A stretch of 64,000 bases of DNA from Taxawa tesnikishii (nom. ined.) (taxonomy: Eukaryota; Ascomycota; Dothideomycetes; Dothideales), in NCBI GenBank assembly GCA_030247885.1, contig JAPDRO010000017.1, positions 310,001-374,000 of the forward strand. Reading direction: 5' to 3'. The first letter of the stretch is position 1, and each line of letters opens with the position of its first letter. Shown here in pieces: positions 19,826 to 26,630 of the stretch. The notes beneath the pieces are model-generated. The model searched no databases and was not told the DNA's origin. It saw only the letters and a list, made by a program, of their open reading frames with translations. The translations under genes and the position numbers were made by a program.

Positions 19826-22800
19826 ATGGCGGCTACAGATGACTATTTTAGCAATTACCAGTCCTTCATTGGAGCCAAACCTCTACCCTCGCCCGCCGAC
19901 ACGCCATACGAGACGCCCGGTCTGAGATCACGAAGGTCTTCTCGCAGTCGCAGAACTCCAACTCGAGGCCCTTCGAATTCTCCACCACCGCTCCCTACCG
20001 ATGCAGCTGAGTGGCAGGATGGTAAGCTTTCTGCCATGGATCCCAGACACTTCACGCCAACATTGCACGCTAGTCTTGTGTCTGAGATCCTCAGCCTGCG
20101 CAGAGAGCTTGATTTGAAGCATGGCTACATCGACGGTCTGGAGGCTACGCTGCAGAGAGAAAAGGCGGAGAACGAGCTGCTGGCAGGCAAGCTTCAAGAG
20201 AGTACCAAGGAATCAAGGCTTGCTCAGAAGCAGCTGAACCATGTAGAGCGCGGCACACTGGACGCTGTGGAGGATCTGCTGAGGGAGCGGGACAGTGCAG
20301 CCATTGCCAACGAAGACCTCAGGAGCAAGATGGATGCTCTCACCAAGAAAGCTCGTAGACAGGAAGAGGAAGCCTTGCAATCATACAACTTGTGGGAGAG
20401 GGAAAAGCAGAGCTGGGACAACGAGCGCCGACAGCTGGAGCGGAGAGTCCACGTCACCGAAAGCCGGTTGCGCGCCTTCGTCGAAGAGATGAGCATGCAG
20501 CAAGCGGACAACGAGAAGCCGGACCAGAATCCAGACAGCGGAGCAGAAGAGACGTTCAAGGATAGCGGCTTGGGCAACGAAAGCGACACTGCGAGCTTGA
20601 CATCTTACAGGACGCTGAGAAGGCATCGCAGGAACAGGAGCAGCCTCAGCTTGCGTAGCAATCCTCGTTCCAGCCATGGTTTTGGATCTCCGGCCAAGGG
20701 CAATGTCTTCTCGCTTGCTGATGAGCTAAAGTTTGACGAAGAGGACGAATATCATGTTGCTGAGTCTGACCATGAAGACGACGACCTTTTGTACGACCGG
20801 CGAGCGCGTGTACTGGAGTCCCGACAACCGTCGCATTATGGAGGTGCTGATGCAAAGGCAAAGAAGATTCTGGGCTTGACATGCGATTCTGGCGACGGTG
20901 TCCTTGGCCCAGAAAGCGATGTCTCTAAGAACAACCGACGGCTGAGTATCTTTGACGGGGAAGTATCCAAAGAAAAGCCGTCTACCTCCGAGGCAGCCAA
21001 CTCGTTAAGCTCAGAACCGGTGGAAGATCTGCAGGCGTCAAGACCAAGTCACCAATATGTGGACAGGGGCATACAACCCTCTCCAAGATCTTCAATAATA
21101 TTCGCCGACGGCAGCAAAGTCATGCCAGAGGGCGGCAAAGACGAGGCTCCGGAAGCACATGTGCACATTATCCCAGAGGGCTTGCACATCGACACTGATG
21201 TATCCGCAAGCTCGAAACAAACTGATGTGATGGTCTCTGTCGCCTCACAGACTGCTGAATTGCCTATCAGCCCTCCCTCAACACCAAGAATAGCCGCTGA
21301 GGAACCGACAGAGCGATTCAGCTCCGTGCAGTTGCCAGAATATTTTTCTACTTCCACACAGACAGACTTGCCGCCACCTAGGGCCGAGGTTGCTGAGCCT
21401 GTATTGCGACTGCCTCTCCCAGTACCCTCTATAGCCATTCATCCTCCTGTTTCTACACCTCCGTCACCCAGGAACTCTACTGTCCTGCCTCCAAACACGA
21501 AGAGTGCGAGCAGCCAGACAGATTGGGTTCTCAGTCAGTCAACCTGCGACGTGTCTGTCCAAACAGAAGAGATCAGAATCGATCGCCGACCTGTCAAGCT
21601 ACCGCCTCATCTATTGCCGAGCGCTCTTGTGACTGTTCTCTCTCCGAGAACAGACAGCGTCGTGGACAAGTCCATCACAGAAAGTGCCAGAGCGCCAAGA
21701 TCACCGACATTACCTACCCAGGAATCTGCGACTTACTCCTCACGTACGAACAGCAGCAGGGATCTCCGCTCACTTCCCCTCAAGGCTCTTCCGATACCGC
21801 GCCCGGTTCTCTCTCCAACGGAAGAAAAGCCCCCGAGCGTCAAGGAAAAAGGTCCTGTCAACAGAGCCGTACAATATGGGGTTTCTAACCCCATGCGATC
21901 GAGCACCTTCCTGGCGGATCTCCAGGACGATTCTGAAGACAGCGATCGCTACACAGAGGGTTTCAGCGACGTGGAGCCAAGAGACCTCTATGGTAACACG
22001 CCTTCGCTCGCGCGGCCGGTGGCGCGCTCGACTTACGTAGGACTGCCCAAGACCGTCCCTGAAGACAAAGAGGTTTCTCCAGGAAACGGCAGCCATTCGA
22101 CGTTCCGAATGGAGGCCGCATCTTCGGAAGCCTCCGAGCTCACTTACAGCACGTCAATCAGAGAACGTCGCGTAAACGGCATGCACTCTTCGCGAAGCAA
22201 CCAGATGCGTTCACGCACGCCAAGTGTAACAAGCGTAGGATCGTCCAGCATGCAGTCAGCGAAACCTCCGTTCCCCATCCCAAAGCGGTCCAGCTCCCGC
22301 GTTCTGGAACAGCCCCAGAGTGAAGGCTCACCAAGCCCCACGCCGTGTGACGGGCAGTCTGTCACTTCCAGACGTACTGAGAGGGCACCGGCGTCGGCGC
22401 CAGCGCGTCGGGTCCCGCTGCGCAAGGTGCAATCTGCGACGGCGATGAGGCAGAACCAAACGTCCCCTAGACGAAGACGTCGTGCGCCACAGCTCACCCC
22501 TATCCAGTCCATGGCCTTCGAAAGCCCTGCTGCTACCAGGTTTCCCATCCCGGATCTTCCGGCTTCTCCACGGCCCCCAACTTTCAACAACGCAGACAAC
22601 GGAGATGGTCACGCGGCAGACCCGATCACTGACGCAGTACATGAGGACGCGCTTGCTGACAACGCGCAAGACACGTCCCTGGTGGATGCCATCGCTGCAA
22701 CAATGGTTGGCGAGTGGATGTGGAAGTACGTCCGGCGCAGGAAGTCGTTCGGTGTTTCCGAGCATGATTTTTCAAAGGACGATGGCGGCGCACACGGCGT

Positions 22801-23874
22801 CAGGCACAAGCGTTGGGTTTGGTTGTCCCCTTATGAACGCACCATCATGTGGAGCACCAAGCAGCCCGTTACTGGATCCGCGTTACTGGGCAAAAGTGGG
22901 CGCAAACGTAGGTTAACACCCCAAGAGAACGTGCACAATGAAACTGACTCCTCGCAGTCGTGATCAAATCCGTCCTCGACGTCCGAGATGAGGGCCCGCT
23001 TCCTAAAGGCGCAACTGCGGACGAGGTTTTCAAGAGGTCCATTCTAATACTCACTCCAGCACGGGCGCTGAAGTTTACCGCTCCATCGCGCGAGCGCCAT
23101 TACCTCTGGCTCACAGCGCTGTCCTTCCTCGCCCACCCCAACCGCGGCCCACCCCAAGTGCCGCGCGTGCCCGCCGTGCCACCTCAGGAAGCGGACGTGG
23201 CCCAACACCTCCAAGGTGGATTACTCCGCCGCGCGCCCGTCCGGGACTCTGTGCGCGTGGCCAAAATCCGCGCCAGCCGGCCAGCGCCCCTGAAGCTGGC
23301 CGACGCGAGCGCGCTGCCCGAAGCCCCCGACATGCCGCTGACGGCCCAAACCGCCGTCTCGGACACGACGGTGACGTCGGCCGCCGAGGCACCCTCGATC
23401 CCGCGCCTGTACGTGCAACGCGGGCAGCACCACGCGCGCAAGCGCTCCAACACGGGTCCCGCGATCCCGACCCCGCTGCACGGCTTCCGCTCCCTCTCCT
23501 CCTCGGCCGCGCCGCCGCCGTCGTCGCACTCGCACGCAAAGGCCGCGCTCGCGCCCACCGTCGCCCGCGCGCCCTCGTCCTTCAGCGGCGCCCCCGCCGC
23601 CGCCGCCTCAAAGCCCCCTCGAGCAGCCGCCGCACCTCGGTCGCCAGCCCCGACCGGCCCAACTTCTTCGAGGCCGTGGGAACGGTCCGCATGGAGGCGT
23701 TTGTCGAGCCGGGCCTGCAGGACGGCGTGCTGTACGTGCCGGCCCCGCCCCGGGCACGGTGGTGCAGAGGAGGCGCAGGAGGGGGATAGTCAGCTCAGCG
23801 TCGGCACGGCGGAGAAGAGGAGGGCGGGCTACGTTTTTGATGAGGATGGCGAGGACCCCTTCAAGGGGTTCTGA
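19826..23874 (+). CDS. apsA: ApsA/Num1/Mcp5-type cortical anchor with PH domain
   Basis: Two exons (19826-22907, 22958-23874; 50-bp intron inside the PH domain) give about 1,332 aa. A coiled coil spans about residues 80-226, followed by a long disordered Ser/Pro-rich region. The Mcp5-type PH domain is at about 955-1090 (EWMWKYVRRRKSFG, RHKRWVWLSPYERTIMW, LKFTAPSRERHYLWLTALSF). The family binds PI(4,5)P2 at the cell cortex and captures dynein for nuclear migration (Num1, Aspergillus ApsA). Five QT motifs at residues about 465-580 resemble dynein light-chain LC8 sites. Near the C-terminus the frame leaves and rejoins the correct one. The stretch around 23610-23740 reads sensibly in another frame (RPNFFEAVGTVRMEAF), while the end YVFDEDGEDPFKGF is in the original frame. 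The start at 19826 (MAATDDYF) was chosen over the longer upstream frame because the conserved part begins there. Confidence 0.9.
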
Positions 23875-24451: not shown

Positions 24452-26036
24452 CTATTCATCACCACTGCTATTCTTTGCTCCGTCTTTCGAGCCTTGACTG
24501 CTGCTCTCGCCATCACTGTTCGACTCGTAGACTGGTACAGGCACAGGGTTTGCCTCTGCCAGATGCTCCTTGGTGCTGGCCTTGACACCCTTCCCGCCGC
24601 GGCCCGCTTCCTCTCCAACACTGTCCTCGCTTCCCCTCCGGTAATCATCGTCATCGGCATCGCCATCGTGACTCTCCTCGCTCGGCACCCGCTCGAAGCC
24701 TTCTCTGTCGCCAGTCTCCTTCTTCTTGATGAACGAATCGATGATGTAGTATTGTATGGCGTTCATGGCGACGGGGAATATGAACATGACAAAGGCAATC
24801 TGCAACGCTTCGCTGCCTTCGGTCCAGCGTAAGGCCCAGTCGCCCACCCAGGCAAGCCATGGCATTGCTTGGAACAAGAAGAAGACGAAGAGCTTCATAC
24901 AGAATAGACCGATGAAGTAGATAAGCGCTTGTTTCATCCACCATGTGTAGTGGTACGGAGGTTCGCCGTAGTTGCCGGACTTGATGGATTCGGGCGGATT
25001 GGCTAGCGGCGTTCTTAGGAAGAGACCGTGGAGCACGCGCAGCAAAATCACAAGGACAGGGATACCAATGGTTGTCTGCGAAGTTGTCAGTCCATGTACA
25101 ACCGTTCAAAGTCAAGGCAACTCACATCGATAGCAAGGTTGAGGAGGTAGAACGAGCATGGGTTAGGTCTTCTTCCATCAGCTGCCTGCACCGTGCTGGA
25201 AGATGCCTGAACGGCGTTTTCCGCATCAAGGTTTCCGGAAGAGAACATGGACAGCCCCAGATTGGCCAAGTGGAGTAGGAATGTACCAAGGACCTGCTTG
25301 GAGACGTCGAAGAACCAGACCTTGACCGGTCTCCGTGGCCGTTCCCGCCAGCGCTTGAAGACCAGAGACAACAACGCGATCGCTCCCAAAGCAGCCTGCA
25401 CAACAAGTGCGAATGGTCCCAGCAAGCGGCATTCGCCGCTGGCGTTGTCCTGCTCCTCTTGACCTTTAGGCCCGGCTTCTGAACCTTCGGTGGGAACAGG
25501 TGTAACTGCAGCTGTGGGTGTCGAGACGACGGAGGAGTTGCTCGCAGTTGTTGTTATTGTTGTTGTTGTTGCAGGGGACGTCGATTGCAAAGTCTCAACA
25601 GGCACTCCCTTTATGCCCATGAGCTCCGTCTCGAAGACGAGCGTGCTGCCGGCCGGTATGGTGCCAACCCTGCTGTTCCCGTAGGCCATCGACGGGGGAT
25701 GACCAGCTTCCGGCCTTCTCCGACGCACATGTTCAACAGGCCTTTGTCCCATCCGGTAATGACCTGCCCAGCTCCTAGTTTGAAGGAAAAGGGTGCTCCA
25801 CGCTTGTACGACTCGTCGAATTCGGTGCCGTCCGACTGCAGCGTGCCACGGTAGTGCACACTGATATAGTCACCGGGTTGGGTCGGACGCGAGCAGGTTA
25901 CGGGTTTCGTGACTTCGACAACAAACCCGTCGGTCGTGTCTATGTGTGGGTTTGCCCATGCTGTCGGGATAGTACTGGCTGAGAGGAGGAGTAGCAGCGA
26001 CGCGGGAAGCGCATGAAGGCGCTGAGAGCTCCGCAT
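24452..26036 (-). CDS. FKBP-type prolyl isomerase fused to a STIMATE/YPL162C-like membrane protein
   Basis: Two exons (26036-25126, 25075-24452; 50-bp intron) cover both parts, about 511 aa allowing for one lost base. Residues 1-28 are a signal peptide. Residues about 35-140 are an FKBP domain ([57 protein letters not shown]), which catalyses prolyl cis-trans isomerisation in the secretory lumen. A Thr/Ser-rich linker leads directly to a multi-span domain of the STIMATE (TMEM110)/vacuolar membrane protein family ([49 protein letters not shown]) and an acidic tail. No stop codon or new start separates the parts. The frame changes once at a five-G run (25694-25698), where the FKBP expects a sixth. 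Alternatives are two adjacent genes merged by an error, or a start at the internal MGIKG for the membrane part. Confidence 0.75.
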
Positions 26037-26630
26037 TAGGCTGGACTAGGTGGATCGAGTACTGCGATCTTGTTTCGTTTGTTTGAACACAGCGACCTCC
26101 CTTGAGGCGTGGTAATCGAGTGTATGCTGAGCGGAGCGTGATGTAATAGAGGCGAATGCGGCTTCTGTACAAAGATAAGCTGCTGATTCAAGCGCTAGCG
26201 TCAAGTCGCAGGCTCGAGGAAGAGCTGCCAAAAGGGCCAACGACACTCTTGACGATAGACAGGCAAACACAAAGAGAGCAAGATGTATACAAGATGTATA
26301 CAAGATGTATACAAAATGTATATAGGATCACAGAGGAGGAGGGAAGTTCACGGAGCGAATGGCGGAGTGCACTGTGCCTCACTGTGCCTCAGCGCTGATC
26401 GGCAAAGATGGGGAAAGAACGACTGGACTGGGCTCGGCAAGAATCTCCGTTTGAAGCGATGAAACGCCTCGCGTGGCTTGTGTGAGACATCCCTTCGTCT
26501 GCAGCCGCATCAATTTGTTGCTATTATTGTAATATCGTAACACCACAGCTGGCAGGCATGAGAGGAACCGACGCGTAACAACAGATACAGCTGTCAACCT
26601 CCGCAGTGCCGTGCTTGTATACCGTACAAC
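26037..26630. other. divergent promoter region
   Basis: This lies between the FKBP-STIMATE gene (minus) and the kinase gene (plus). Apart from the 11-bp tandem repeat it holds no coding sequence that I can support. Confidence 0.55.
26279..26322 (+). repeat. 11-bp tandem repeat, four copies
   Basis: The unit CAAGATGTATA occurs three times exactly, followed by a fourth copy with one change (CAAAATGTATA). It lies in the divergent promoter region. It is a minisatellite and useful as a strain marker. No function is evident. Confidence 0.8.

Follow-up and report, generated by a model that had tools for sequence, protein, structure and literature searches.

A secretory FKBP2-type domain apparently fused to a STIMATE-family membrane protein in a dothideomycete fungus

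Results

The window, by which we mean the whole stretch of 64,000 nucleotides that was analysed (positions 310,001 to 374,000 of contig JAPDRO010000017.1, assembly GCA_030247885.1) from Taxawa tesnikishii, carries on its minus strand a unit that runs from 26036 to 24452, with an ATG at 26036 and the stop codon at 24454-24452, and thus bears out the limits (24452..26036) of the original prediction. In minus-strand order the unit comprises a leader, an FKBP2-type domain, a linker and a STIMATE-family membrane protein, with the following features.

25953..26036, minus strand: start codon and signal-peptide-like leader of 28 residues with a hydrophobic core (hydropathy; cleavage point by eye)
25695..25952, minus strand: main part of the FKBP2-type domain, in the upstream frame (FKBP_C, 4.4e-24)
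25694..25698, minus strand: run of five identical bases where the reading frame shifts by one base (sequence)
25612..25689, minus strand: final strands of the FKBP domain, read in the downstream frame (sub-cut-off FKBP_C match; identity to ER FKBP2)
25414..25611, minus strand: linker with a Thr/Ser/Pro-rich core, two N-X-S sequons, no stop and no Met (translation)
25547..25571, minus strand: triplet microsatellite coding for the Thr run of the linker (repeat)
25126..25413, minus strand: STIMATE-family exon 1, with TM1, a positively charged loop, TM2 and the beginning of the STIMATE profile (hydropathy and profile)
25413-25357, minus strand: TM1 (hydropathy)
about 25293-25237, minus strand: TM2 (hydropathy)
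25076..25125, minus strand: intron of 50 nt, GTGAGT...CTGAC...CAG, between whole codons (profile match extended by its removal)
24452..25075, minus strand: STIMATE-family exon 2, with TM3-TM5, an acidic tail and the stop codon (STIMATE, 4.3e-37; hydropathy)

As assembled, these parts fall into two open frames (26045-25611 and 25869-25087), the upstream one (frame 0) being closed by a stop at 25613-25611. The parts had been proposed to form one unit with no stop between them; this holds for the downstream frame, which is stop-free from 25869 to 25090 and counts 188 codons from the ATG at 25689 to the intron, but the assembled sequence splits the unit in two.

A signal peptide had been predicted, and a hydrophobic leader is indeed present, with a 10-residue hydropathy maximum of 2.4 at residue 9 (assigned by hydropathy, with the cleavage point set by eye). 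The piece before the frame change matches FKBP_C at 4.4e-24 (85.1 bits against a curated cut-off of 21.1, profile positions 2-78). The end of the domain lies in the downstream frame, where the FKBP_C match stays below the cut-off both for the long frame (0.0069) and for the frame cut at the ATG 25689 (0.16), so that the FKBP fold described as complete in the original prediction becomes complete only when read across 25694-25698. When the FKBP piece is cut at the frame change, its best solved relative is human FKBP2 (9.4e-20), in agreement with the FKBP2 type proposed beforehand; with the whole stop-to-stop frame as query, two wheat FKBPs rank above FKBP2 among the solved relatives. For the piece after the frame change the solved relatives were only FKBP ends (E 0.16-0.92), and the NCBIfam profiles gave only FKBP-type or trigger-factor matches, all below their cut-offs.

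A profile search of the genome returned four FKBP_C matches, the other three of which were typed by eye as an acidic Fpr3/4-like protein (L001), an ER FKBP2 (L002) and an FKBP12-like gene (L004). L002 has the usual make-up of an ER FKBP2, with a leader peptide, two introns (about 100 and 89 nt) and a KKDEL end. The main FKBP piece of the window shares 39 of 59 residues with L002, 36 of 80 with L001 and 33 of 83 with L004, and its end piece shares 11 of 16 and 10 of 17 with two pieces of L002, 11 of 27 with L001 and 8 of 17 with L004. Judged by these identities, the genome has in the fused FKBP an additional paralogue of its ER FKBP2. The fused copy contains neither of the two L002 introns nor a KDEL-type end: an ER retrieval signal is absent from the C-terminus, as the FKBP domain continues as linker and the last residues of the whole frame are NSSGDE. 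As a guess, the intron-less FKBP copy upstream of STIMATE could have originated as a retrocopy.

The linker between the two domains is about 66 residues long and carries two N-X-S sequons; 20 of the 51 residues of its core are Ser or Thr, as the predicted Thr/Ser-rich linker would have it. The microsatellite at 25547-25571 encodes its Thr run, so the length of the linker may differ among isolates.

The multi-pass STIMATE part was recovered as predicted, except that it is split by the 50-nt intron at 25125-25076. Exon 2 alone matches the STIMATE profile at 4.3e-37 (positions 11-124), and with the intron removed both exons together match it at 1e-42 (145.9 bits against a cut-off of 22) over positions 1-124 of 124. 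In the genome the profile search gave a single STIMATE match, that of the window itself, and no second STIMATE gene; scans of prokaryote and viral contig collections gave no relative, and the search for a solved relative of exon 2 gave no significant one (nine rows, all at E 0.68 or worse). Five hydrophobic segments were recognized, of which TM2 is weak and becomes visible only with the hydropathy threshold lowered to 0.9. The loop after TM1 holds six Lys and Arg against one Asp or Glu, whereas the linker side of TM1 holds two against seven. Because of this charge pattern and the positive-inside rule, the N-terminus with the FKBP domain is predicted to face the lumen and the tail the cytosol, as would suit a secreted FKBP at the N-terminus; this supports the earlier placement of the isomerase on the lumenal face. 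The tail, with one NSS sequon, begins with SFIKKK yet is acidic overall (13 Lys and Arg, 25 Asp and Glu); since the tail is acidic and TM2 is seen only at the threshold of 0.9, the topology is given as a prediction.

Both other frames carry stops within the linker. In the frame that enters STIMATE, the FKBP domain itself holds ATG codons at 25689 and 25620, and another follows at 25248, past the first span; none occurs from 25620 to 25248, so that the way from the FKBP domain to TM1 is free of them. None of the three candidate start ATGs has a purine at -3. The claim that there is no plausible new start between the domains is accordingly upheld for the linker, but a product made of STIMATE alone could begin at ATG 25689 or 25620, both within the FKBP domain. 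The roughly 200 nt from the end of the FKBP domain to TM1 leave little space for a 3' end, a promoter and a start.

A strict intron scan of 26036-24452 gave 17 donor-acceptor pairs, of which a single one, the STIMATE intron, had a branch point. The strict criteria overlook an AAG acceptor such as that of intron 1 of L002 and were therefore relaxed, which gave 24 pairs, nine of them near the junction. Seven of these nine reach a stop within 105-140 residues; the remaining two (25724 to 25609 or 25594, with the poor donor GTCGGA) skip the frame change and enter STIMATE while deleting the conserved FKBP end. A frame finder based on codon statistics, a weak model in which introns and frame changes are indistinguishable, called only 24499-25011 coding and did not call the FKBP domain, the linker or exon 1. 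Given the open frame, the lack of an ATG in the linker, the gap of about 200 nt and the location of the strict-scan intron in STIMATE only, separate FKBP and STIMATE genes would have to overlap. Chance juxtaposition of unrelated open frames was rejected in view of the strong family matches of both parts. Thus an FKBP-STIMATE fusion is supported at the DNA level, and from the DNA we infer a single transcript.

The frame change at the five-base run, which the original prediction had singled out as needing explanation, was approached through a comparison set of Cpn60/TCP1, HSP70 and proteasome genes. Matches lying no more than 1 kb apart on the same strand were counted as one gene and each interval between neighbouring matches as a junction, by which 68 genome matches gave 34 genes, 34 junctions and 34,551 matched nt. 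At 32 junctions the excess length was 38-410 nt, as for introns or insertions. The other two, in a chaperonin subunit gene (L022, G000:C1:528261) and an HSP70-like gene (L035, G000:C3:494622), were exactly one base short with a frame change, both at short homopolymer runs. Two breaks in 34,551 matched nt are a lower bound, as breaks close to where a match ends escape this count. Since yeast cannot live without its CCT subunits, a dead chaperonin gene is unlikely, and the assembly probably carries single-base homopolymer errors in coding sequence. As the chaperonin and HSP70-like genes show the same one-base shortfall, the break in the FKBP domain fits this type of error; a likely cause has thus been found, and an assembly error is the probable source of the frame change at 25694-25698 too, the evidence being circumstantial for that particular site. 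Because the downstream frame keeps FKBP2 residues, the two frames were one until recently, and a true break would be a recent one. Programmed frameshifting was also considered and, by eye, thought unlikely.

Read by eye, a further frame change seems to occur elsewhere in the window, near 23500-23790 in an Mcp5_PH gene (22948-23874, plus strand), without space for an intron; the Mcp5_PH domain matches lie within 22196-22960 and 22948-23871.

Discussion

We consider it probable that the locus holds one gene, which encodes a leader, an FKBP2-type domain, a flexible linker with sequons and a five-span protein of the STIMATE/YPL162C type, that its product is a membrane-tethered lumenal paralogue of the ER FKBP, and that the frame change is an error of the assembly. 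An assembly error is not required if two overlapping genes are present instead, namely an FKBP ending early at the stop 25613-25611 and a separate STIMATE starting from ATG 25689 or 25620, with a promoter inside the FKBP coding region or an upstream alternative exon. The STIMATE part can be read in frame from either ATG, and as only one STIMATE gene was found a working STIMATE protein is presumably made. Nevertheless, we regard such an arrangement as unlikely, since the FKBP would lose its last strands, yet their residues persist in the other frame, and the region of the junction contains no intron by the strict criteria, the relaxed pairs there either running into a stop (seven of nine, within 105-140 residues) or costing the FKBP its end (two of nine).

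The FKBP part could also be decaying, the fusion having once existed; the frame change would then be a genuine mutation, and all that is made now would be STIMATE-like. The frame is broken as assembled, and the canonical ER FKBP2 in the genome means that the fused copy may be dispensable; we nonetheless find decay quite unlikely, because, save for that single frame change, the FKBP frame is open and its sequence well conserved, and the same type of lesion occurs in the chaperonin subunit gene and the HSP70-like gene. Two products, a full-length FKBP-STIMATE protein and a STIMATE-only form arising by internal initiation or alternative splicing, would make use of the in-frame ATGs at 25689 and 25620 and would fit a genome in which no second STIMATE gene was found; with no purine at -3 of either ATG, we judge this very improbable.

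For the single fused gene, the leader would take the FKBP domain into the lumen, and TM1 of the STIMATE part would pass from the lumen to the cytosol, so that the FKBP stays lumenal and the acidic tail cytosolic. The FKBP would be retained by the membrane part instead of a KDEL-type end, and its putative isomerase (or adaptor) activity would thus be concentrated at one membrane. By analogy with FKBP11, the fused FKBP would no longer diffuse freely or depend on KDEL retrieval but would be held in place at a membrane. The tethered FKBP might help to fold the partners of the protein itself or nearby lumenal segments; this client side is conjecture.

Both halves of the putative protein belong to known families, and it is their combination, together with its Rosetta-stone hint of a function shared by secretory FKBPs and STIMATE proteins, that is new. 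With FKBP2/FKBP13 and fungal Fpr2, the ER FKBPs of Group C of Pemberton 2006, it has in common the signal-peptide-like leader and the FKBP2-type domain; unlike them it lacks a KDEL-type end and continues into a linker and a membrane protein, and it is without the two introns of L002. With STIMATE/TMEM110 and yeast YPL162C it shares the full Pfam STIMATE profile (PF12400) and five hydrophobic segments, a likeness by family profile rather than direct alignment, but it has a secreted FKBP domain and a linker in front. In animals STIMATE has a STIM-linked role at ER-plasma membrane junctions with STIM/Orai, a role that a fungal protein would not be expected to have. In its manner of working the putative protein would come closest to human FKBP11, likewise a secretory FKBP with a membrane anchor; the likeness is drawn for the FKBP domain. 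The anchor of FKBP11 is a single C-terminal span, in place of which the window protein has a multi-span STIMATE-family protein. Neurospora NcFKBP3 (FKBP22) is also a fungal secretory FKBP with a C-terminal extension.

According to passages of the survey of sixteen fungi by Pemberton, the NcFKBP3 extension is charged, with a predicted amphipathic helix and an HNEL end (PMC1618848), in contrast to the membrane protein found here. The same passages place one ER FKBP group in all but five of the fungi and add another for N. crassa and G. zeae, and the section on the ER group mentions no membrane fusions of ER FKBPs (PMC1618848). Excerpts on Penicillium species list one ER FKBP orthogroup (PMC8192932), and those on Septoria two FKBP_C proteins predicted to be secreted, with 179 and 148 residues, which are too short for the fusion and may be ordinary FKBPs (PMC11196620). 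For FKBP11, the passages at hand describe a transmembrane protein bound to ribosome-associated secretory translocons, and the authors argue there that it is an adaptor and not an isomerase of nascent chains (PMC12804085). An excerpt reports Ypl162c of yeast at the vacuole rim (PMC8176713), so the vacuole is possible as well as the ER as the membrane of the fused protein; in the passages at hand YPL162C appears only in lists of vacuolar membrane proteins. The passages of a study of the STIMATE family across 69 animal species make no mention of fungi, a fusion or an isomerase (PMC5627428), and the open-licence PMC literature, mostly as titles and abstracts, names no FKBP-STIMATE protein.

We found no described function for a fungal STIMATE-family protein, and fusion to a lumenal isomerase offers an inexpensive clue, open to testing, to its partner or surroundings. 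As a tentative and rather doubtful extension, the fusion may be conserved and expressed in a fungal lineage and act as a Rosetta stone, indicating that across the fungi secretory FKBPs and STIMATE/YPL162C proteins cooperate at the lumenal side of the ER or vacuole membrane. If this were true, the STIMATE family would gain a function outside calcium entry. The fusion would, moreover, be a fungal counterpart of the membrane-anchored design of FKBP11.

Upstream of the FKBP-STIMATE gene, at 26279-26322 of the window, an 11-base unit (CAAGATGTATA) occurs in four tandem copies.
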